A program made the position numbers and the translations under genes. From Allomyces arbusculus (lineage: Eukaryota; Blastocladiomycota; Blastocladiomycetes; Blastocladiales; Blastocladiaceae): a stretch of DNA of 64,000 nucleotides. Shown piece by piece: positions 1,574 to 36,928 of the stretch; the first letter of the stretch is position 1; each line of letters starts with the position of its first letter. The notes under the pieces are model-generated. The model was given only the letters and a program-made list of their open reading frames with translations, had not been told where the DNA came from and did no database searches. Location of the stretch: NCBI GenBank assembly GCA_027604705.1, contig JADHYV010000049.1, positions 70,072 to 134,071 of the forward strand, in the 5' to 3' direction.

Positions 1574-2402
1574 GGTGGGGGACGCGCATTATTGCGCGCG
1601 TCGGCGGGGACTGATACCGAAGCACTCCCCATTTGTCTTCGTTGTCGACGGCTGGGCGAGGGAAGTAGGTGGTGTGAATGGGGGCCAAGGGGCACAATTG
1701 ATATCTCGAGGGCGGCCTAGTTTGAAATGAAATCTGAATCTTAGTTATGAGTTTCGCTCTTGTTCTCGGTGCTGGCGCGCTGTAGTTACGAATCATCACT
1801 CAATGGGCAGCAGGGCAGTGCGTAATTCAGTGCCAGACACACCCATCAGTTTTAAAATCAATCGCAAGTTACCCGCTCGGTACAACAAATTTTCACCTGA
1901 AGATGCTTCTCCACGAGTTTATTGCGCGGACATGGGCGTTCCGAGTGTGAATGGTCGAGCTGCAACGCCTCGAAAGGGCCGTCGCTGTTCTTCTGCGGCG
2001 TAGCAAGGGCGGAGCGGGAGCGCACTAATCAATCCATTTGGTGAGCGGAGGTGCGCAATCCTCGCCATCAAGACTCCATCGTGGGCGACTGCGCTGGTGG
2101 CCACACGAAGCAACAAAATCGAGTTAACGTTCAGCGGTGGGGCAAGTGTGCTCTTCAAAGACCAGTGATGTGGTCGCAGCGCGGCAAAGAGGCTAGAAAA
2201 CGGCAAAGATTTGGTAGCCCTGCTGCACTGTTCGCGCCAACAACGGCACCGTGCACAACCAAACCGAAGCCAATCCGAGTCGAAGACGTTGCAAAGCATT
2301 CCGGCAACTTGGGAAACGACGATCAGCATGTGCAAGCACGACCGGCCAAGGCGATTTGGCCCGCTGAAAAATGCACGAGTAGGCCGCAATGGACCTGCAT
2401 CC
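1574..2402. other. Intergenic, no gene seen
   Basis: 829 bases holding the 3' end of the secreted-protein gene and the promoter of the next gene. Several open frames cross it, but none has a family motif, signal peptide or splice structure I can support. Confidence 0.5.
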
Positions 2403-4860
2403 ATGGCACCAACCGGCAACTGGGTCACACGCGCAACATGGACCACGTTCCTGCTCGTCGCCTCCGTTTTGGCCCTCTTGCCTGTCGTGCACGCCGAATC
2501 GTCATCCGTGATCACGCTGACGGCCGCCACTTTCGACAAATCTGTCGCGTCGGGGACGTGGTATGGTCAATACGCGAGCCGGATACTTGTCGAAGCGCAA
2601 GATTGAATAGAGCCCGATGCCAAGAGAGGATTCTTAACACTCGGCCTGATTGTCGCTCTTTTCCAGGTTTGTCGACGTGTGTACTCCAAACAGCTAATGC
2701 GTCCCTTTGGCGGTTCATAACTGACTGTGCCTGGAAACATCCACCGAATTGCGATCTTCGTAGTTTTTCGGTACTTGTCCACCGCGACTTCGTTCGGTCA
2801 CGATGTGACTGGGCACTGACCACCTTTCACTGCTCGCAATTAGCGCCTTGGTGTACGCACTGCAAGCAGCTCGCGCCCAAATACGAGGAAATGGCCGCGA
2901 CCGTTGCTCCGTGGCGCAAGTCCAAGCAATTCTACGTGGCCAAGGTGGACTGTGTCGACAACGAGGCCCTGTGCCGGCGCCACGAAGTGGATGAGTATCC
3001 AAGTGCGTTGTCTCGCCGTTCTATATTGCACCCATCACGACTCGCCCAGCTGACCAATTCTGTCTCTCTTTAGCCCTTCATCTTTTCCACGATGGCCACC
3101 GCACGGACGAGTACAAGGGCGACCGCACGACGAAGGCCTTGCTCGACTATGTGACGACGGCCACGGCCAAGATCGAGGTCAACGCTGCCAAGGCCGCGGC
3201 GCAGGCTGCCGACTCGGTCTTGAACGATTCGCCGCACGAGGTGCATCAAGGCGGTAAGCACGCTGTGCACGACTTCCCGTCGGAGGCGCACTCAGCGGCC
3301 TTGGACGCGGCGCTCGCAGCGAAAGCAGAAGAGTTCCAGACGGTGGCCGCCGATCGCGCGGCACGCACGAGTGCGTGGGGCCAGTACGGCCGTGTCGTGG
3401 AGCTCACGGGCGACAATTTCGAGGAAATGACGTCCAAGAGTGGCCCGTGGCTCGTCATGTTTTATGCGGCGTGGAGCAAGCAGAGCCAGGTCCACCATCT
3501 CTTTCCTTTATCACGCTGCGCTGCTTTCTGATCGCGCAAACTGACTGGTCCCACCCCGTTCTCGCTGCTCCAGGCTTTCCTCCCCATCTACGAGGCGGTC
3601 GGCCGTAAACTCGCCGGCAAAATGAACGTCGGTCGCATTAACGCCGACATTGAGGTGGAACTCGCGACCCGCTTCTTCGTTCGCGGGTACCCGACCATTA
3701 AACTCGTGCGGCGCGGAATCGCGCGCGACTACCGCGGCCCGCGCACGCAGGACGCTTTACTCGAATTCGCGCACGCGGCTCTGATCCCGAGACCCGTACA
3801 AATGGTCACGGCGGCCGAGTTCCACCGCATGCGCGCCGAGCACGACGTGGCTGTGGTTCTCGCCATGGACGCGCACACGACACCCGAGGCCATGCGCACC
3901 TTTCTCGACTCTGCCGATACGTGGTCAGTCGGTGGCACGACGGGCCTGTTTGCGTCAGCCGACCCTGGCATCACACCGGGCGAGCGGCCGGCGATTCTCG
4001 TTGCACGACGCGGGTTCCCCGAGACCGACCGGTTCCCACCCGTGGCCCCCGCCGACCGGCCCGCCGACGAGTACAAGCCGGGTCCGCAAAAGGCGTTTGT
4101 CTTGCCCGACGGCGAAGACGTGGTCGACGAGCTCGAGCAAGAGGCGCGCGAGCGCGCCAAGCGGGAGCAGGCACAGCGGTTCGCGTTCACGGTGCCGCGG
4201 ATCGTTGAATTTGTCCGTGCGCGCCGGTACCCGCTGGTCCCAGAACTGACGGCGGCGACTGCGCTCGAGCTCATGGACGGGGTCGATCTCGATGGCCCGC
4301 GCGCGCGCCGCGTCGTGGTCGTGGGGGTTCTGGACCCGGCACACTCGGACGCCGAGCGCGATATTTTGCACCGGCTTGCGGAATCGCTCGTGCACCAAGG
4401 ACTGCAGATGCACGGTGTGGACGTGCGGTTTGTCTGGCTCAATGGTGCGCAGTACGCAGCCTACGCGCAGCGCATGTTTGATGTGACTCCGGCAGATTTA
4501 CCGCGCGTCGTTTTGGCCGTGCCCGCGAAAGACATGGTGTATCGCATGAATCCAGATGGGAAACCGCTCGCGTTCAAGACGGCCGAGATTGCCAAGGCGC
4601 TCGACGATGTCGCGCACCAGGTCGCGACGCGCGAGCGCGGCCAGTACCGCGGGACGTATGTGCCGGGTAGTCGCGCGCAGCGAGGTGAGTGGCTCGTGGC
4701 GGCGGCCGGAGGTGATATGATCGGGCCCATTGCGGCCGCGGTCGTGGGCGTGCTCGGACTCGGTGCTGTCGGATGGTGGGTGTGGCGCGCCACGACCGAA
4801 CAGTCGGTGAGCACGGCGACCGGCGATTATCGCCACGTTGCGGCACACAAGGACGATTGA
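2403..4860 (+). CDS. Thioredoxin/PDI-like type I membrane protein
   Basis: Exons: 2403-2560, 2667-2676, 2764-2770, 2844-3002, 3074-3489, 3574-4860; phases close to give 678 residues. A signal peptide (LLVASVLALLPVVHA) leads into a first thioredoxin domain whose active site reads FVDFFAPWCTHC, a CxxC with CTHC. That block can only be assembled by including exons of 10 and 7 bases. A second thioredoxin-like domain (GPWLVMFYAAWSKQSQ) has lost both active-site Cys and is probably non-catalytic. A long C-terminal part follows, with one membrane segment near the end (GPIAAAVVGVLGLGAVGWWVW) and a short cytosolic tail lacking a classical KDEL. The layout resembles TMX-type or transmembrane PDI proteins of the ER that make or shuffle disulfides. 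Function is inferred from the CTHC domain; the exact family member is not certain. Confidence 0.85.
2667..2676 (+). other. 10-base microexon
   Basis: Bounded by CAG at 2664-2666 and donor GTGTGT from 2677. It completes the Trp codon and encodes FVD in the thioredoxin strand before the CTHC site. Frame and family motif fit only if it is included. Confidence 0.75.
2764..2770 (+). other. 7-base microexon
   Basis: TTTTTCG lies between TAG at 2761-2763 and donor GTACTT from 2771. It encodes FF plus the first base of the Ala codon of APWC. With the 10-base exon it restores FVDFFAPWC exactly in frame. Confidence 0.72.
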
Positions 4861-10063: not shown

Positions 10064-12580
10064 TTACTGCGCGCCCGTGCCCTCAAAGCACTGCGCGAGG
10101 AACGCGCGGTAATCGAGCGCGTCCTTGTCGCCATTCGCGTGCGGCATGGCCTCGCGCAGGTAATTCATGACCTCGGGCGTGATGTGCGCGACGCGCATAT
10201 CGGCCTCGGTGACGTGGCCTTTGGCATTGGCGAGCGCCTGGAACGCAGCGAGCACCTGGTCGGGCGACGACGTCTTGTCCTCGGTCACCGACCGCATGTA
10301 CTGCACAAACTGCTCAAAGTTGATCTCGGCCGTGCCGCCCGACACTTGCGTGAAGACTTGGTCGAATTCGTCGTCCTGCATTTTGGGGGCGCGGGAGGGT
10401 GAGTCTCGGGGGTGGTAGGTGTGAGCGAAGCTATGTCGCGGAACGGACCGTGAGGGCAATGCCAAGACCCGCGAGCGACGCCTTGAACTCGATGGCGTTG
10501 AGCGTGTTCGACAGATCCTTGTCAAAGTGACGGAACGTGGACTGGAGAGAAAAACCCAGATTAGAATCATGTCAGGCCGTCGAGGGACGCGTCGACAAAA
10601 AGCAAAATGCACCTCAAACTCCTCGAGCTGCTGCGGCGTCAAGTTGGTGAGCTGCCGCGCGACCGACTGGTTCTCAATAAACTGCAGCTTCTTGGTCAAC
10701 GCCGTGGCCACGAGCCCGAGATCAAACTCGACGTCTTCGACCGCGTAAATCGTGTGCTCGTTCTCCTCGACGTTCGCCGCCTCGCACTCGCGCCCAATCC
10801 GCTTCAGTTCCTGCAGCGCCGCCTGGTGCTTGGGCAGCTCGGCCTGCGCAGCCTCGACTTTCGCACGCTGGTCGTCGAGCTCGCCATTCAACCCAGCGAG
10901 TGCGGCCGACATGGTGTTCAAGTGCGCCTGCAAGTCGTTGGCCGTCTTGGCAAACGCGACCATCAACTTCTCCTTGATCTCCTTGATCTGCGCATTGATC
11001 GCCTTCTTGCGGCTCGCCTCGTGCGTCAAGTGCGCCTGCCACGCCGCATCCACGTCGGCCGGCGCGAGCCCCTTGGGCGGGGCATATGGCTTCAAGTGGT
11101 ACGTGATCAGCTTGGTCTGGATATTGCCGAGCAACGCGTCCAAGTCGCGTTTCTCCGCGACCCATCCGCGCTTGATCGTCGACTTATACTCGTTGAACGC
11201 CGTCGACTGCTGCTTCGCGTCGACGTACGCGGCCGCTGGGGGCTCACCATGCCACGCCGCTTGTTGCGCGGCCATGCCGTCAATCAGCGCGCGCGCGCGC
11301 CGCTCGTAGTCGTGTTGCATTTGGAAGACGGACGACATGAGTTCGGCAAACTTGGCGACGCGGCGGCCGGCCACTTCATACTTGTCGAGCTGCGAGAAGG
11401 CGTGGAAGTACTGCGCGACATAGGTCATGACCGACCGCTCGTCGGGCTTGGGCAAGTCGACTACGTCCTCGACGTCGAGCAGTTTCGGGATGCCCAGGTG
11501 CTTGGCGGCCACGTCAAAGGCCAAAGCCATGTTGCCGTGTTTGTCGGCCTTGTTGAGCGCGTGGAAGTCGAGCAGGTCCGGGCGGTGGCGGTGGACTAGA
11601 AATCGAGGTGGATCGATGGTTTAGTTGTGCGTCGTCAAAGCCGTCACGCGCAGATCGGAGACAGGAATGGGCGACGTACTCAGCGCACAGCTAGAAACAT
11701 GATCGATCGGAGGAGTCGGGGCGTGAGTCTCAATCGACAGCAACAGCGGGTCCTCGCAAAGCAGAGAAACACGTACAACGCGAGCCCATCCTGCCAGCTG
11801 AACGAGAAGTCCTTGACCTGGACGTCCGGGTTGTAGGGCGCCGTCTTGCGCTGGCACCAGAGCAGCAGACCCTCCTTGGCCGTGAGCCCCTCCTCGGAAA
11901 TATCAGCGATCGTGAATCGCAAGATAATCGTCCAGATCAGACCCAATGCGAGCTTTTCGTTGCCGTCGGTCAAGTCCTCGGCGCCGATATTGGTCAGGTT
12001 CACGCCGCGGCGCTTGATGAACGCGAGCGCAGTGTTCTGGTTCTCGATTTTTTGAATGCGCATCTTGGGCACGCGGTTGAACTTGCCGAGCGACTCGTCG
12101 CCAATGATTTCTGAAAAATGGGGGCGGGTGGGGCGTCAGAAACTTGGGCATGATTGAGTCGGCAATCGAGCGAGGAAAACCACGAATTGCGTACCGAGCA
12201 ACTGGATCAGGTTGACGCCGTCCGTCAAATCGGTCGTGATATCGTTGATGGCGAGCCCGCGCATCTGCAGCTTGGTGTTGACCCATTTCGTGAACGCTGG
12301 CGGTGGATCATGGCGCAATACGCACGTCGTCGTCAGCTGCCGTGTCCACAAAACACGTTCACGCGCGCAACACCGCCACATGGCGCGTCATTCGCGGGGA
12401 GAGCAAGAGCAACTAGAACGAGAGAAAGAGCGTACTCTTTTTCTGCACTTCCTCCCAGGCCTTATCCATGATCTTGGCCGTGTCCTGGACTGACGAGCGC
12501 GACGCGGCGCTCGGGCCCGAGGTCGCGAGCGAGTCGTGCGACCCGTGTGTCGACGACGACTTCATGGGCGAGGGCGTCAT
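10064..12580 (-). CDS. Alpha-actinin
   Basis: Seven exons on the minus strand: 12580-12436, 12296-12195, 12110-11777, 11690-11680, 11595-10613, 10541-10449, 10375-10064; phases close to give 659 residues. Order: a short Ser-rich leader; calponin-homology domain 1 starting [17 protein letters not shown] domain 2 with [21 protein letters not shown]; a helical rod of about two spectrin-like repeats; and C-terminal EF-hands ([19 protein letters not shown]). This is the short-rod fungal form, which crosslinks actin filaments, for example in the cytokinetic ring. The CALI part of the CH2 signature comes from an 11-base exon. The first in-frame ATG (12580) is used because the frame upstream starts only with TTG. 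Its promoter is shared head-to-head with the pyrophosphorylase gene. Confidence 0.93.
11680..11690 (-). other. 11-base microexon of alpha-actinin
   Basis: CTGTGCGCTGA on the minus strand sits between TAG and donor GTACGT. It changes GLA plus split codons into GLAFCALIHRHRPD, the invariant CH2 signature. Without it, exons 3 and 5 do not join in frame. Confidence 0.82.
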
Positions 12581-19732: not shown

Positions 19733-19742
19733 NNNNNNNNNN
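19733..19742. other. Assembly gap (10 N)
   Basis: Ten N bases followed directly by 22 C. Probably a placeholder where homopolymer reads failed. Confidence 0.98.
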
Positions 19743-23247: not shown

Positions 23248-23355
23248 GCTCCAGTAGCTCAATCGGTTAGAGCGCCGTGCTTATATGGGCGTTCCCCGTA
23301 TACATACACGCACGAAGCAACGCGGAGGTTGCGGGTTCGAGCCCCGCCTGGAGCA
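23248..23355 (+). tRNA. tRNA-Ile (anticodon UAU) with intron
   Basis: Acceptor stem GCTCCAG pairs with CTGGAGC, discriminator A. D-arm GCTC/GAGC, anticodon stem CCGTG with CGCGG (one G-U pair), and T-arm GCGGG-TTCGAGC-CCCGC all fold. The anticodon loop reads CTTATAA with anticodon TAT once an intron of about 34 bases, beginning one base after the anticodon, is removed. Introns at this position in tRNA-Ile(UAU) are known from yeasts. No long T-run follows immediately. Confidence 0.93.
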
Positions 23356-23653: not shown

Positions 23654-24991
23654 CTACCCGCTCGCCGCACCCGTCGTCGACCCGCCCGCCTTGCTCCCTC
23701 CACCCAAGACCTTATTCAACGCCCACCCGCCGACCGACTTGACCATCCCCGCCGGGGACGCAGCTCCACCCGTGACCGAATTCGCGACCGAAGCAACCGA
23801 GGCCATCGACTGGACGAGGTGGCCCAACTCGTCGACCGTCGGTGCCGGGTGCACTTGCGGCGGCGTGTAGGCCGCAGGCGCATACGGCGTCGCGGGCGGC
23901 GGCGGCGGCGCGTACACCATGCGCGCGTGCGTGTGCGCGTGCGACGCATAGTACGGGTACATGGTCGCGTGCGTTGGAGTCGGGGATGCGGCACCGGCGT
24001 CCCGCGCGGTCGCGGCCGTCGCGGGGGCGGAGGAACCGAGGGACAGGCTCGCGACCGACGCGGCGCGGCGGAGGACGGCGCCCGCGGCGGAACGGACGCG
24101 CGAGGTTGTTGAAACCGACGGTGCGCGGGGCGAACTGGTGGTCCCACCGTCTGGGATCGAGGTCGGTGGGGTGATGGCACTGCCGCCGGCGCCGGTGCCG
24201 GGGTAGTACAGGTAGTAGGGCGCGTAGGGCGCGTAGGGAAGAGGTGGCGCAACCGCAGCAGCCGTCGTGGGTGCGGACACTGGCTGGGAATCAGGTGGGT
24301 TCGTGGCATCCTCGTTTTCGTTGTCGTTTTCGGGTAATGCAGACTGAACGAGCGACCCGACGAGCGGGACGGCGCCGAGCTTGGACCGGACAGCGTAGGC
24401 GCGGTCGAGCGATTTCCACGCGGAGCCGACGAGGCCGCCGACCATGCTGTTGGCCGTCGTGGGCGCGGCGGGTGTCGAGGAGGACGGCGACTTGGTATTG
24501 TCGCGTTGCTGGTCGCCAGCGACAACCTCGTCCTCGTCGTCGTCCTCCGAGTCGGACGCATCGCTCCCGTCCCCGTCCTCGTCGGCCAACTGCACCGCAT
24601 ACGTGTCGCTCGGCAACCCGGCCGCGCGACACCAGGCGGCACGCGCCGCATCAAACTGGGCCATGGCGCGATCGAGCCGCTGCGCGCGCCGCGCCAGTTG
24701 ATCTTCCTGGCGCGCAAGCCGGCGCGACCGCTTGTCGAGCGCCGCCATGTGCTGGTCAATCGACCGCGCGTGCTCGTTGAGCGTATCGGCGTCGCGGCGC
24801 AAAAGCGCGTGTGCGTGGTGCATGTCGTCCCAGAGGTGCAGGCAGGCGAGCGAGTGTGCCATGGCGTTGGTGATGGTCGCGTGCGCGTGCGGCAGCCAGC
24901 GCGGGTCGCCGATGGCGGGGGCTGCTGGGGTCGGTGCGCCGGGCATGGCGGCGGGGTGCGCGGCCGGCGGCGCGGCGTGCAGCGGGTGCAT
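23654..24991 (-). CDS. Coiled-coil, low-complexity protein of unknown function
   Basis: Single-exon frame of 445 residues from the ATG at 24991; the frame continues upstream but only through a Thr-coding microsatellite with no ATG. Not recognised. Residues about 45-130 form a His- and Arg-rich helical region and coiled coil (DKRSRRLARQEDQLARRAQR), followed by an acidic patch, a helical block (GSAWKSLDRAYAVRSKLGAVPLVGSLVQSAL), a Pro/Tyr-rich segment (PYAPYAPYYLYYP) and a C-terminal helix with a small-residue surface (VKSVGGWALNKVLGG). The amphipathic helices could bind membranes, but that is speculation. It is divergent from SKN7. Third-position GC bias supports this frame over the longer antisense frames here. 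Confidence 0.6.
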   Translation of the reverse strand: MHPLHAAPPAAHPAAMPGAPTPAAPAIGDPRWLPHAHATITNAMAHSLACLHLWDDMHHAHALLRRDADTLNEHARSIDQHMAALDKRSRRLARQEDQLARRAQRLDRAMAQFDAARAAWCRAAGLPSDTYAVQLADEDGDGSDASDSEDDDEDEVVAGDQQRDNTKSPSSSTPAAPTTANSMVGGLVGSAWKSLDRAYAVRSKLGAVPLVGSLVQSALPENDNENEDATNPPDSQPVSAPTTAAAVAPPLPYAPYAPYYLYYPGTGAGGSAITPPTSIPDGGTTSSPRAPSVSTTSRVRSAAGAVLRRAASVASLSLGSSAPATAATARDAGAASPTPTHATMYPYYASHAHTHARMVYAPPPPPATPYAPAAYTPPQVHPAPTVDELGHLVQSMASVASVANSVTGGAASPAGMVKSVGGWALNKVLGGGSKAGGSTTGAASG

Positions 24992-25095
24992 GGTGGTGGT
25001 GGTGGCGGTGGTGGTGGTGGTGGTGGTGGTGGTGGTGGTGGTGGTTGTGCTGGTGGTGGTGGTGCTGGTGCTGGTGGTGCTGGTGCTGGTAGTGA
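24991..25095 (+). repeat. (TGG)n microsatellite
   Basis: About 100 bases of near-perfect GGT/TGG triplets, with GCT interruptions toward the right end, directly upstream of the coiled-coil gene's ATG. Confidence 0.9.
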
Positions 25096-25974
25096 TAGCG
25101 GGGAGGAAGGGATGGGTGCTCGATGGGACGCTCGCAGACGACGAGACGAGCTGGAAGCCGGAGCGTGAACGCGGAGCGCGCGCGCCAGGAACGCGAGCGG
25201 GGGTGGCGCGGCGGTGCGGTGGTGCGGTGGGCAGCACCACGTGCGCGGCTGGTGCGGCCACGTGTCGCGGGGCTTGGCGCGTGGCTTCGGCTGCGTTCCT
25301 GCTGCGCCCGGGCCGCGAACGCTGCTGCGCGCGGCCAACCCGGCGCGGGTTCCGCGGCGCGCGGCCACTTGGCCGTCGGTTGCTGTTGCGCGAGGTGAGG
25401 GGCGCCCCCGCTCGCGCGCGCAGGGCCGGTCGCCTGGCACGTTGGCGAGCGCCGCGCCCGGCCGCGCCGCTAAGGACCGCGTCGCCCCCGCCGATCTCCT
25501 GTCCTCTCCCTCACCTCTGTCGCCCGCGCGCCCCCGCCAACGCGGCGCACCAGCAAAGCGCGGCGGCCACCCCACGGCCCACGCACGCTCTCCCACCCCC
25601 GAGCACCCCGTCGGCCGCGACGGCACTGAGCCGCTTGCGACCCGCCTGCGAGATCGCCAGCGACCGACCGGTGGGCCCCCTGCGACCCGCCTGCGACCTT
25701 TGGGCGACCGGCCTGGGCCCTCGAACGCGCACGCGCCGCTCCCCTTTGCGCGCACGCGCCGCTCGCCCTTCGAGCGCACGCTGGCCGATCGCGCGGCGCC
25801 CGCTCCACTGCCTTCCACCATCGCCGACCGACCGACCGTCCGACCGACCGACCGGCCGACCGACCCACGCACGCCGCCCCGATCTGCCACTGCCCGCAAA
25901 GCACTGCCCGACCCGCCGACCAGCGAATCGGACCGGCCTGACCGGCGCGCCGACCAAGCGCTTCCGCCATCGCC
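24992..25974. other. Divergent promoter region
   Basis: 983 bases between the coiled-coil gene (minus) and SKN7 (plus). Extremely GC-rich, with the TGG microsatellite and a CCGA-type repeat near 25820-25865. Long open frames on both strands lack ATG-led structure or family motifs. Confidence 0.5.
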
Positions 25975-26079
25975 ATGCCCGCGTCCGCGTCCGAGTCGCC
26001 GCCCGCGTCGGCTTCGCCCTCGCCACCGCTGCACCCCACCACGCCGGCGCCGCTCGCGCACCCGCGCCGCGTCATGGAT

Positions 26080-26116
<37 letters not shown>

Positions 26117-29100
26117 ATGCTGCTGCCGCTGCTGCCGCTGCGACTCCTGCATCCGGCCATGACGCCGAGATGGCCGACGCTCCTGCCGCCGCCGCCGCCG
26201 CCGCCGGGTCCGGCCACGATGCTGCCGCGATGACCAGCCCGCGCGCGACCGCGAGCCAGACGCCGTCCGCGACAGCCACGCCCGCCGCGGCGACCCCCAT
26301 CACGACCACCGCCGGCGCGACCGGCGGTCCGGGCACCGCCGTCTCGACGCCTGCTGCGACCGCCGAGTTCTTTGCCGCGCACGGCGACGCGATCCCGGAC
26401 TTCGTCAAGAAACTCTACCGCATGCTCGAAGACGCATCGTCGAACCACATCGTCTCGTGGGCCGGTGCGGGCACGTCGTTTGTCGTCAAGGACCCGGCCG
26501 AGTTTGCGCGGTCAATCTTGCCCACGCACTTCAAGCACAACAATTTCAGCTCGTTTGTGCGGCAGTGCAACAAGTACGCGTTTCGTAAAGTCAAGGCCGA
26601 CGGCGCGCACAACGCCCACGGCGACCTGGCCTGGGAGTTCAAGCACCCGCATTTCATCAATGGCCGCACCGACTTGCTCGACAAGATTCGCCGGAAACCG
26701 CAGGGCGCCGCTGCTGCGAACGACGCTGCCGCGGCTGCAGCTGCGGGGACGAGCGGCGGGGCGACGACCAACAACAACAACAGTACCAACAACAACGATA
26801 ACGCCGACGACCATGACCTGCAAGCGCAGATCGACCACCTGGCCCGCGCACACGCCGATATGGCCCGGTCCCTCCGGTCGCTCGCCGATAATTACCTGCT
26901 TGTCGCCGACGAACTCGGCCGCCTGCGCCACTTGACGGCGTCGCAGGAAGCGCTCATTCAGCGGCTCATGGACATGGTCGAGCACGCACCACCCGGGTCT
27001 GCAGCTGCTGCGGCACGCGCACATGCTGGGCGTGGTGGTACCAGTGGGAGTGGAGGTGGCCCGCCATCGCGGTCGGCCTACCCGCCGGCCCTGCCTGGTC
27101 CGGCCTTACCGCCGCTGCCGCCACCCCCTTCCTCGTCGGGCCCCGGCGCGAATACGGGCGCTGGTGGCAGTGGTGGATCGCGCCGGTACCTTGCGAGCGC
27201 GCCGCATTACGACCATGGTCCGCTTTCCACCAACCTTCACCATCTTTCGTTTCGTTGCCGCACTCATGCTGACGTGATCCACCGACTCATCTAGACGATA
27301 CCTACGACGCCCCACCCTACGGGTACGACCCGGACTGGTACGCGCCGCCGCCGCCTCCACCTCCGCCGCCGCACGGCGGCCCGCCCACGTCGGCCTCGGG
27401 GTACGGCGGTCCGCGCGGCGCGCCGGCGCCGCCATCGCACCACCACCACCACCACGGGTACCACCAGCCGTACCACCACCACCACCACCACGCGCCCACT
27501 TGGGACGACGGGTACCGGTACCCGCCGCCGCCGCCGCACGCGCCGCACGACCGTGGGAACGCGCCGCACCGGTCGCCCCCCGACTATTCGGCGCCGCCGC
27601 CGCCGCCAGCCGGGTCGAACCGCGGCGGTGCCGGCGCGGCGCGCGGGTATGATGGGTATGATGAGTCGAATGGTGTCTGGCGCCCCGGCGGGCCGCGGGG
27701 GGACGAGTATGGGGATCGCCGCGGTGGGCCGGGGCGGTACGATGATCGGGAGCGGGAGCGCGAGCGGGAGCGGACGCGCGATCGCACGCGGCATGAGGAT
27801 GACGATGCCGGGATGATTGGCGTCGCGCCGCCGCCCGCGCCGCCGTCGGCGCAGCAGCAGCCGCAGAAGTCGCAGCAACAGCGTCGCGCGCCGAACGCCG
27901 CCAACGCCGGCCCCGCCGTGCGTGCGCAGCCCACCGGCGCGACCGACGCCGCGGCCGGCAAGCCGAGTGACGCGAACGCGCTTGACTGGACGATGCCGCC
28001 ACGCGTGTTACTCGTCGAGGACGACGACGTCTGCCGCCGGCTGTCTGGCCGGTTCCTGCAGCGGTTCGGGTGCCAGATCGATGAGGTCACCGACGGGATG
28101 GCGGCCGTGCACCGCATGAATGCCGGCAAGTACGATATCGTGCTCATGGACATTATGATGCCCAACCTAGACGGGTGTTCCGCGGCTAGCCAGATTCGCG
28201 CGTTTGATCAGACCACGCCGATTGTCTCGATGACGTCGAACTCGTCCGAGGCCGATTGCCTCGTGTATCTTGCGCACGGGATGAACGATATCTTGCCGAA
28301 ACCGTTCTCGAAGGCGGCGTTGCGCGACGTCGTCGAGCGGTACTGCGCACACTTGAAGCTCGGGCTCGGGCTCGGGCTGGCCCGGCGTGCGGGGGACCGG
28401 GACACGATCCCGCGCGCGATCGCGAATGCGCAGGGCCGGTTGACGGAAATTGTCGACGAGTTGGACTCGAACGCCGAAGTGATTCCGCCGACGTCGTCGG
28501 CCGCCGCCAACGCCAACAATGCCACCACCAACGGCAACGGCACCGCTACGGCCCACGTCGCGTCGCCGCCGGCCACCGCGCGCCTGCCGACGTCCGCGTC
28601 GATGCCCGTCCTTGCGCCGCCGCCGCCGCCGCCCACCACGTCGGCCACGACCAATGCGCTCCTGCCGGCCTCGGCGTCAATGCCCTCCCTCGCGCGGTTC
28701 GCCGCCGCGGCGCCCCCGACCGTGGCGCCGCCCGCGCCAGCACCGACGGCGCCGCTCGCCGACTTGACCGCGCCGTTCCTGCACCCGGACCTCGCGGCTG
28801 CGCACCACCACGGCGCGCTTGATTCGTCGTCGGCCGCGGCCGCGGCCGCCGTCCTGATGGCGGCCGGGCTCGCGCCGCAGACGGATCCGGCGCTATCGAG
28901 TCTGTCGATGGGGATGGGGTTGGCGGCCGCGGCAGCGGCCGCCGCCGCCGCGTCGCAGGACCCGACCGCGGCGTACCCGTTCTTTGATGACCAGCAGGCG
29001 GCCGCGCAGGGGTATTACCCGAGCGTCTCGAATGCGGCGGCTGCGGCCGCGGCGGCCGCGGCGGTTGGGCGGACGGGGATGTTTGCGCAGCAGCAACAGC

Positions 29101-29969: not shown

Positions 29970-31026
29970 TCACTTCTTCTGCGGCGCCAAAATTCCCTCG
30001 AGCTGCGTCTTGAGCTGCAGGTTCGTCTTTTTCATAAATGCCAATTCCTCGGCATGTTTGCGCTCGTCCATGGCGCGCCGCTCGGCCTCGCGTTTCTCAA
30101 TCGCGTCGCATTTCGCCTTCAGTTCGGCCACTTGTGTCTCGAGCGCGCGCTTGTCGTCCTCGAGCGCTTTCGTGCGTGCCTCCATGTCGGCTTTACCCCA
30201 TTCGGCCATCAACGCCTTGCGCATGCCAAAGGCCACAGACGACTCGTAAAGCGTTTGGTAGGCCGCGATCGACATGCGGATTTCGTCGCGGACACGAAGG
30301 AGCAAGAGGCCGCGTTCTTGGCAGGAGATGGTGACTTGCCGGATGAGTTCGTCTAATTGGGGAGGGGTGAACGGGTGAGCAAAGGAGAAGCGCAGGTGAT
30401 GTCGCTTGGTGTTGAGATGAGGAGACACACCGAAACACTGGCTATAGAGCTCGCGACGGACTGGGCAGATACCAGTCTCGCGCGCTTGCCGCTTTTGCAG
30501 CATTTGGTCGAGTTGTTCCTACATGATCGGAGACACGCTGCGTGAGGCTCAAGATCGACCAGGCACGATCAACCAGCGACCTTTGGTGCAAACGGACCTG
30601 CAAGTTGATCACGTCGAGCCGTGTCGCCGGGGTACTCGAGACGCGCTGCACCCACAGCTGGCCATGGTCGTCCCACTCTCTACCATCCCGCGCCCATGAG
30701 TACAGTTCGTGAGTCGAGCCCCGCATGCTTGGGATCCTCCGACACACGCTAACGCATTGAGCATACCGTGGCGGCAAAATACTGTTCAGGATATCCTCAG
30801 TCGGTGTCGGTGACTTGGCGCGCGCGCCCTTGTCGTCGACCGGCGGCAGCTTGTGCGCCTTGTCGGACCCGGGCCGCGCCAGCTGCGGGCGGTCGTGCGT
30901 GCCGACGGCCGCTTTCCCGGGAGTCTTGTCGTGGTTCGACGATGAGGCTTTCGCGACGAGTGTCGGGTTGTCGTACTTGACGAGCGAATGCAGCGGGGCC
31001 GCGGGCGAGGAGGTGGCGGCGGCCAT
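29970..31026 (-). CDS. DNALI1: Axonemal inner-arm dynein light chain (p28)
   Basis: Four exons on the minus strand: 31026-30767, 30679-30598, 30518-30431, 30352-29970; phases close, 270 residues, close to the family norm. Hallmarks: LVKYDNPTLV at the N-terminus; DILNSILPPREW; QLWVQRVSSTPATRLDVINL; QARETGICPVRRELYSQCFDELIRQVTI; ERGLLLLRVRDEIRMSIAAYQTLYESS; then a long coiled coil to LQLKTQLEGILAP. This light chain belongs to single-headed inner dynein arms of motile flagella, so the organism makes swimming cells. The third intron contains no stop, so naive reading would retain it; removing it restores CFDELIRQ. Head-to-head with a small GTPase gene 402 bases away. Confidence 0.96.
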
Positions 31027-34848: not shown

Positions 34849-36928
34849 ATGGTCGCGTCAGCCATCTTCATCCTCGACGTCAAGGGCAAGCCCCTGATCG
34901 CGCGCGACTTTCGTGGCGATATCCCCATGACGGCCATCGACCAGTTTATGCCGCTCGTCATGGACCGCGACGACGATCACGGCGACCCGCCGCCCATTGT
35001 TGCCGACACCAACGGCGTGCATTACCTGTAATTATTATTGACGATTGCCTGCAAGCTCGATGAGTCCGTCAATGGTAACTTACGATGCGCCTGCGTCCTG
35101 CTCCAGATATATGAAGCACAACAACCTTTACTGTACGTCTTGGCCATCGATCATTTGCCCGCCGAGCTCGTGCAGCGCGATCCTCCTAGCACATCCACTC
35201 ACGTTCGAATCGGCTCGACTGACGACCACCGGGCCTGCTCTTGTGCCATCATTGCACTCCAGTCGTCGCCCTGACGCGCAAAAACTCGAATGCCGCGACC
35301 ATATTCCTGTTCCTGCAACGGCTGACCGAGGTGCGTGCGCGGCATTGGTTTGCACCCTCCAAGAGCGCCCCTTTTGCGTGCACTGACGAAACACGCGCAT
35401 GAGGACTCTACAGGTCTTCACGGAATACTTCAAGCAAGTCGAGGAGGAGTCGATCCGCGACAATTTCGTCATCATTTACGAGCTGCTCGACGAAATGATG
35501 GACTTTGGGTTCGTATACGTTTGTTCCGCAAGTCATTCTGTTCTTGGACCATCCCAGTTGACCGATCACGCTGACCACCCGCAACTGCAGGTATCCGCAA
35601 ACGACCGAGTCCAAGGTCCTGCGCGAGTATATTACTCAGCAGTCCTACAAGCTCGAGTCGGCGACGACGACGCGCCCGCCGATTGCTGTGACCAACGCCG
35701 TCTCATGGCGAACCGAGGGCATCAAGTACCGCAAGAACGAGGTGTTCCTCGATGTCATCGAGTCAGTCAACTCGCTCGTATGTTACGACAGCCAAATCCC
35801 ACTCGCGTGCCGTTGCCATTTCTGCACCGCATCGTTCTCATTGTCCTTACTGACCGTGCCTGTCGTCCGCTGCTAGATCTCGCCACAGGGCAACGTGCTG
35901 CGCTCCGAGATTCTCGGCGCCATCAAGATGCGCTGTTTCTTATCGGGCATGCCCGAACTGCGTCTGGGCCTCAACGACAAGGTGCTCTTTGAGACGTCCG
36001 GCCGCACACCGCGCGGCAAGGCTATTGAAATGGACGACGTCAAGTTCCACCAATGTGTGCGGCTCGCGCGGTTCGACCACGACCGCACCATTTCGTTTAT
36101 CCCGCCCGATGGCGAGTTTGAGCTCATGTCCTACCGGCTCGGTGCCGAAGTCAAGCCGCTGATCTCGGTCGAGACAACGATCGAAAATTACTCGGGCACG
36201 CGCATCGAATATCTGGTCCTCGTCAAGGCCAACTTCAAGCGCAGGTCGACGGCGAATAACGTTGAGATCTTGGTGCCTGTGCCCGAGGATGCGGATTCGC
36301 CGAAGCTCAAGAGCGTGGTCGGGTCAGTGTCGTACTCTCCCGAGAAGAGCGCGATTATCTGGAAGATCAAGCATTTCCAGGGCGGCATGGAATTTCAGCT
36401 GCGTGCCACGTTTGGGCTGCCGACGGTCAAGAGCCGTACGTTTTGATTTCAGTCGCTGCGAGGTAGAGGCGGAGAGGTAGAGGTGGGTCGCGGCTGACTG
36501 TCCTCACCCGCATGTAGTCGACGCTGACAAGCGGCCACCGATTCAGCTTAAGTTTGAAATTCCATACTTTACGATCGTACGTCGTCATGCTCCACCTCGT
36601 CTGCGCTGGATCATTGCGATGGTTGCGCACGCTTGCACGCTGAGTCTCTTGACTTGGTCTGACAGCTCCAACATGTTCTCCCTCCATAGTCGGGCATCCA
36701 AGTTCGCTACCTGAAGATTGTACGTTTCAGCCCGTGCGCGGACGCGGACTGTGCTGTTCATCTCACTGTGGGCCCTCTCAAACGTAGGTTGAGAAGTCGG
36801 GCTACGCGGCACTGCCGTGGGTGCGGTACATCACTCAAAACGGCGACGCCTACCACGTGCGGCAACCAGAGCCCGTCGCGACCGGCCCGCGCGCACCGTA
36901 TGGCGGCAAGCGATCGATCTCGTATTGA
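34849..36928 (+). CDS. APM1: AP-1 clathrin adaptor mu subunit
   Basis: Nine exons: 34849-35027, 35107-35132, 35263-35330, 35414-35508, 35591-35777, 35877-36435, 36518-36576, 36691-36720, 36788-36928; phases close, 447 residues, the family length. The longin-like N-terminus (SAIFILDVKGKPLIARDFRGD) and the mu-homology domain (ISPQGNVLRSEILGAIKMRC, LNDKVLFETSGRTPRGKAIE, EKSG-WVRYITQNGDA) are canonical. DFGYPQTTESKVL and EGIKYRKNEVFLDVIE favour AP-1 over AP-2. It recognises YxxPhi sorting signals on cargo at the trans-Golgi and endosomes. Exons of 26 and 30 bases and a GTTCGT donor at 35509 are unusual but forced by the frame. The epsin at 62442 may act with this adaptor. Confidence 0.97.

Follow-up and report, generated by a model that had tools for sequence, protein, structure and literature searches.

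Two adjacent predicted microexons of 10 and 7 nucleotides encode the core thioredoxin strand of a PDI-like gene

Analysis of a 64,000-nt stretch of genomic DNA (the window) indicates, with high confidence, that a gene resembling those for protein disulfide isomerases (PDI) contains two adjacent and genuine microexons, of 10 and 7 nt, that together would encode the core strand of a thioredoxin domain. The gene was modeled with six exons on the plus strand (2403-4860), giving 679 codons including the stop and no internal stop codon. The elements of this model are listed below.

2403..2560, plus strand: exon 1, with the ATG, a hydrophobic signal-like segment (residues 11-29), and the start of thioredoxin domain 1; it ends 2 bases into a Trp codon.
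2561..2666, plus strand: intron 1, 106 nt, with donor GTATGG and the strong acceptor TTTTCCAG.
2667..2676, plus strand: microexon 1, GTTTGTCGAC, 10 nt, comprising the last base of Trp and then Phe-Val-Asp.
2677..2763, plus strand: intron 2, 87 nt, with donor GTGTGT, a CTGAC branch-like site ∼39 nt before its end, and the weak acceptor CTTCGTAG.
2764..2770, plus strand: microexon 2, TTTTTCG, 7 nt, comprising Phe-Phe and the first base of Ala.
2771..2843, plus strand: intron 3, 73 nt, with donor GTACTT, a CTGAC branch-like site ∼24 nt before its end, and the weak acceptor AATTAG.
2844..3002, plus strand: exon 4, with CG completing Ala, then the PWCTHC active site (PWCTHCKQLAP) onward.
3074..3489, plus strand: exon 5, with the end of domain 1, a linker, and the start of thioredoxin domain 2 (without CxxC).
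3574..4860, plus strand: exon 6, with the remainder of domain 2, a weak thioredoxin-like match, a hydrophobic segment (residues 632-650), a short tail, and the stop.

In this model, the W-FVDFF-A strand, located just upstream of PWCTHC in thioredoxin domain 1, is supplied by microexons 1 and 2. The two microexons had been put forward in an original prediction from this DNA, and their letters, coordinates, and AG/GT borders proved to be exact when the sequence was re-read; the lengths that it gave for the three introns were also confirmed. It had further placed the end of exon 1 at Trp. A Trp codon is indeed found there, but exon 1 (ending in ...GGG ACG TG) contributes only its TG, and the codon is completed by the first G of microexon 1. 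When the alternative translations were compared, skipping microexon 1, microexon 2, or both led to a stop codon, as did the retention of any single one of introns 1, 2, and 3. An open frame combined with a restored thioredoxin fold was obtained only when both GTTTGTCGAC (2667-2676) and TTTTTCG (2764-2770) were spliced in. Both exons are internal, are no longer than 15 nt, and have GT-AG introns on both sides, which places them in the small class of microexons (internal exons of ≤15 nt) as described in the available portion of PMC8831610; both also encode an in-frame part of a conserved protein motif. The borders, the frame, the restored strand, and the chance control are established here at the level of the sequence. 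The central claim of the original prediction, namely that the strand preceding the active site is assembled from two microexons in succession, is strongly supported by chain ranking, shuffles, and comparisons with Pfam and PDB.

For the chance control, GT-AG chains were enumerated across 2502-2845, with a maximum of three introns, none shorter than 40 bases, and a first donor from 2540 on. This gave 2671 chains across the gap, of which 462 were open and matched the reading frame on either side. A strand profile was built from the 8 residues before the active site in ten PDB thioredoxin domains, hand-picked from four of the five printed PDB alignments, with the DNAJC10 third domain and the near-copy 3apo omitted. 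The two-microexon chain (donor 2561) ranked first of the 462 with 22.3 bits, on a profile that leans somewhat toward this very form because the PDB search behind it was queried with the microexon-bearing protein; the ten reference domains themselves ranged from 16.4 to 22.4 bits. The runners-up, at 15.6 and 15.3 bits, both contained these two microexons and differed in the first donor, and the best open chain without microexon 1 reached 6.8 bits. Setting the minimum intron length to 30 or 50 bases left the top score unchanged. When the 283 bases were shuffled so as to preserve dinucleotides and to leave the outer GT and AG in place, the top-scoring path per shuffle averaged 1.4 bits (sd 3.3; n = 7173) and the maximum was 15.8 bits. 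A chance origin of the strand match was rejected, given that none of the 7173 shuffles reached 22.3 bits.

Domain 1 was also scored with the Pfam Thioredoxin model, which was built independently and is free of the selection bias of the strand profile. With both microexons, the domain scored 96.9 bits over profile positions 2-102. Five other open forms scored 83.0, 85.6, 89.4, 93.7, and 84.7 bits, the 89.4- and 93.7-bit forms again containing both microexons and differing in the first donor; two read-through forms scored 75.0 and 76.0 bits. One- and two-intron models were rejected on account of their lower strand-profile and Pfam scores.

Exons from two further genes in the window, encoding an alpha-actinin and an AP-1 mu1 adaptin, were examined for comparison.

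11680..11690, minus strand: 11-nt microexon CTGTGCGCTGA of the alpha-actinin gene, which with its neighbors encodes F-C-A-L-I before HRHRPDL.
12195-12296, minus strand: second actinin exon, with an adjoining intron of 84 nt.
35107..35132, plus strand: 26-nt exon of the AP-1 mu1 gene (reconstructed gene model).
36690..36719, plus strand: 30-nt exon of the AP-1 mu1 gene (reconstructed gene model).

The front of the alpha-actinin gene found its best match (E 1.6e-103) in Alpha-actinin-like protein 1 (5bvr), which we take to be a fission yeast protein. The 11-nt exon joins ...QDGLA to HRHRPDL as FCALI, exactly the residues present in 5bvr. Among the 100 GT-AG paths with up to two introns across this gap, 16 were open and a single one yielded all eight residues GLAFCALI, a result also given by 2 of 161,100 shuffles. 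Moreover, the CH-domain (calponin homology) score was 176.8 bits with the 11-nt exon, compared with 157.8 bits for a hand-made version without it. The AP-1 mu1 adaptin gene was reconstructed with nine exons (34849-36928), and its product matched AP-1 mu-1 in the PDB over residues 1-424 (E 1.6e-192). Over the PDI-like, mu1, and actinin genes, 3 of 14 internal exons were 11 nt or shorter, a proportion that is not a fair rate, given that the actinin gene was chosen for its gap in the open reading frame and the PDI-like gene is the finding itself. No microexon was seen in the stretches of the striatin and axonemal dynein light chain genes that were read by eye.

Within the window, predicted microexons are not peculiar to the PDI-like gene, and with the actinin 11-nt exon as a second case, exons of very small size may be frequent in this genome. 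The window also contains an axonemal dynein light chain gene on the minus strand at 29973-30800 (PF10211, E 4.5e-49 for the translation of one exon), which indicates a flagellated organism and on that ground led to rejection of an origin from Malassezia; taken together with the best actinin match, this gene suggests a flagellated, early-diverging fungus. A tentative reading, about which we have more doubt than confidence, is that this is a flagellated fungal lineage in which pervasive ultra-short exons (7 to 11 nt) chop conserved motifs, as in land plants. If that reading were true, a good share of the gene models for this genome would be wrong at active sites.

Splice sites were evaluated with local matrices, an earlier one from 10 introns and a later one from the 14 introns of the three genes other than introns 1 to 3 of the PDI-like gene. 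The three genes contributed 17 introns, 68-139 nt long (median, 84 nt), and introns 1 to 3 of the PDI-like gene fell inside the length range of the other 14 (68-139 nt). A CT[AG]A[CT] site was present in 13 of the 17 introns, including all three around the microexons and 10 of the 14 others. These introns resemble those of the aquatic fungus Blastocladiella emersonii, which, according to the part of PMC2773782 consulted, are mostly 60-79 nt long and have a CTAAC-like branch site. With the 10-intron matrix, the donors at 2561, 2677, and 2771 ranked at the 88.9th, 95.6th, and 95.4th percentiles when set against all 4008 GTs of the window; the acceptors at 2666, 2763, and 2843, set against its 3048 AGs, ranked at the 99.3rd, 57.9th, and 65.5th percentiles. 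The latter two acceptors are weak, with scores of 2.5 and 0.4 versus 4.9 to 11.1 in the 14 training introns. Judged by splice sites alone with the 14-intron matrix, the two-microexon chain ranked sixth of 462 by mean score per intron and second of 462 by sum. Among the 254 three-intron paths, it ranked second with the 14-intron matrix and first with the 10-intron matrix.

We propose that three introns of normal size (106, 87, and 73 nt) would cut the thioredoxin core strand and leave exons of 10 and 7 nt. Each of these short introns, with its CTGAC/CTGAT-type branch site, would be recognized across itself (intron definition), so that exon length should hardly be limiting. Removal would probably be sequential, intron by intron, since a 7-nt exon could hardly have its two splice sites occupied simultaneously; for plant microexons, the flanking introns are described as likely removed consecutively in the available text of PMC8831610. 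Since none of the lengths 10, 7, and 17 is divisible by three, inclusion would be effectively all or none for the protein. Splicing of the two microexons, as judged from these features, is most likely constitutive and achieved via intron definition.

The gap can also be crossed without microexons, by a single intron (2566-2666) followed by one long exon (2667-3002) in the PWCTHC frame. This path is open because the exon 4 frame is, by coincidence, free of stops between 2051 and 3073, and its mean splice-site score is the highest of the 462 open chains, at 11.7 per intron versus 8.8 for the two-microexon chain with the 14-intron matrix (12.1 versus 8.1 with the 10-intron matrix). However, the domain would become 55 residues longer, with other residues replacing the strand, and the Pfam match would start only at profile position 26 (75.0 bits, compared with 96.9 bits over 2-102). 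The extra 59 codons look non-coding by a codon-usage score trained on 747 codons from mu1 and actinin (-0.69, compared with +0.19, +0.28, and +0.16 for exons 4, 5, and 6; exon 1 scored -0.10), and the path would offer no explanation for the finding that FVD and FF are flanked by AG and GT and come in the correct order and phase. We consider it very unlikely that read-through is the correct structure; the form is likely to be what a gene predictor would output rather than the main transcript, and it is plausible that gene predictors would miss the microexons. If, on the other hand, both microexons are used and the first donor is moved to 2558, exon 1 ends at 2557 and the Trp is dropped. The resulting form is open and in frame and scores 93.7 bits with Pfam, but donor 2558 (GTGGTA) scores -4.2 versus 3.5 for 2561 (14-intron matrix), and the strand profile gives 15.3 versus 22.3 bits, which leaves this variant scarcely credible.

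A regulated switch would be compatible with the two-microexon model. Here, microexon skipping would break the frame and lead to destruction of the transcript, and the degree of inclusion would set the enzyme level. Once intron 1 has been removed, skipping could follow: microexon 1 begins with a donor-like GTTTGT, directly preceded by the strong acceptor at 2666, and this GT at 2667 outscores donor 2561 (6.3 versus 4.0 with the 10-intron matrix, 4.6 versus 3.5 with the 14-intron matrix); the weakness of acceptors 2763 and 2843 and the frameshift in all three skipped forms point the same way. However, an acceptor directly before a GT also occurs in 3 of the 14 other introns (mu1 introns 3, 4, and 8), so the feature is common here, and we regard such a switch as unlikely. 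The notion of a pseudogene or an assembly error in this stretch, with a fortuitous strand match, is opposed by the 679 open codons (stop included) over six exons, by the two Thioredoxin stretches, and by the absence of any equally high score among the 7173 shuffles; we give it practically no chance. The preferred reading is still that of two microexons, both spliced in from donor 2561. As a separate observation, the frame of exon 4 runs open for 340 codons (2051-3073), through introns and upstream sequence, and may act as a trap for gene predictors.

The whole predicted protein matched the Pfam Thioredoxin model in two stretches (149.4 bits, E 3.8e-44; cut-off, 23.5), and a weak Thioredoxin_6 match was also present. 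Its best PDB match, among 228 sequences at an E value of 0.001 or better, was TXNDC5 (E 1.4e-63), and many PDI proteins were found among the best 60 of these 228. The three domains of TXNDC5 align ungapped over the strand, with FVMFFAPWC, FIKFFAPWC, and FIKFYAPWC. The CTHC of domain 1, at residue 62, is the sole CxxC in the protein, and domain 2 carries SKQS at the corresponding position. The strand of domain 2 is uninterrupted: its SGPWLVMFYAAW stands beside SGTWFVDFFAPW of domain 1, ungapped from SG onward. Hydrophobic segments, as detected by a hydropathy window, are located at residues 11-29 and 632-650. A KDEL-type ending is absent from the C-terminus, which reads HVAAHKDD. Given the two Thioredoxin stretches, the PDI matches, the CTHC, and the hydrophobic segments, the most likely product is a PDI-like ER protein that is anchored in the membrane. 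The gene is probably an ordinary protein-coding one whose product would be a PDI-family ER membrane protein, its ER location and enzyme activity being deduced from these features. The probable domain layout is a signal-like segment, a CTHC thioredoxin domain, a second thioredoxin domain lacking CxxC, a region weakly resembling thioredoxin, and one transmembrane segment.

Yeast Eps1p and the TMX proteins are grouped as membrane-bound PDI-like proteins that combine thioredoxin domains with a transmembrane segment. The predicted protein resembles them in its thioredoxin domains and, with its probable transmembrane segment, may do so in the second respect, a comparison made here by PDB match only, in which the Naumovozyma Eps1p (4tve) was matched with an E value of 3.2e-12. 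It differs from Eps1p and TMX in that its active site is CTHC and its second domain is without CxxC.

The original prediction had held a 7-base exon to be near the smallest known in any eukaryote. This is wrong, since 1-nt and 6-nt exons appear in the consulted portions of PMC8831610, PMC12940212, and PMC1184071. Exons of 1 nt with RNA evidence are described for APC11 and VPS55 in Arabidopsis and other plants (PMC8831610, as far as available), and excerpts of PMC12940212 report a 1-nt exon in Fusarium CYP621A, supported by RNA reads, and an 8-nt exon in Phanerochaete CYP5141A1. Those fungal microexons, like the present ones, restore a conserved motif and the frame, and they were found by manual curation; they are single and occur in P450 genes, and that of Fusarium is smaller and RNA-backed, whereas here an adjacent pair lies in a thioredoxin fold (same excerpts of PMC12940212). 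In the P450 genes of the basidiomycete Phanerochaete chrysosporium, the shortest exon given in the accessible part of PMC1184071 is 6 bp. Very short exons are common in that fungal gene family, a likeness to the present case, although the organism is a basidiomycete and the protein family is different (PMC1184071, same part).

Adjacency also has precedents. Neighboring exons of 5 and 12 nt were verified by RT-PCR in the rice Peptidase M1 gene Os08t0562700 (PMC8831610, in the text available), and the same pair is reported for the Peptidase M1 genes Zci_04270 of Zygnema (by RNA-seq) and AT1G63770 of Arabidopsis in the part of PMC11096116 consulted, where annotation of the Zygnema gene is said to have missed the microexons and lost the Peptidase M1 motif. 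The plant genes share with the present gene two consecutive exons of ≤12 nt (PMC8831610 and PMC11096116, both in part), but theirs is an RNA-verified structure common to land plants, whereas ours is in a fungus and is predicted from DNA. Human RPS24 likewise has consecutive microexons, its 3-, 18-, and 22-bp exons following one another, but it is alternatively spliced, whereas here inclusion is required for the frame (PMC12686416, in the section available). Searches of the open-licence literature found no relevant report of microexons in zoosporic or early-diverging fungi (chytrids, Chytridiomycota) or in Malassezia, and none of microexons in disulfide isomerase or thioredoxin genes. Neither the size of the microexons nor their adjacency is new; what the predicted structure would add is the setting, in that the organism is probably a zoosporic fungus and the affected strand belongs to the core of a thioredoxin fold.

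If the gene is spliced as predicted, an annotation without the microexons would either lose the thioredoxin core strand or insert 55 wrong extra residues. The gene would also offer a natural case for how the spliceosome handles neighboring exons of 7 and 10 nt.

Some further features of the window were recorded. A tRNA-Val(TAC) gene at 23248-23355 carries a 22-nt intron in its anticodon loop; the default tRNA scan missed it, but Rfam detected it, as did ARAGORN when introns were permitted. A run of ten Ns at 19733-19742 represents a small assembly gap. Finally, the region 24001-28000 is 72.7% G+C, and the open frames located there contain long runs of single residues.
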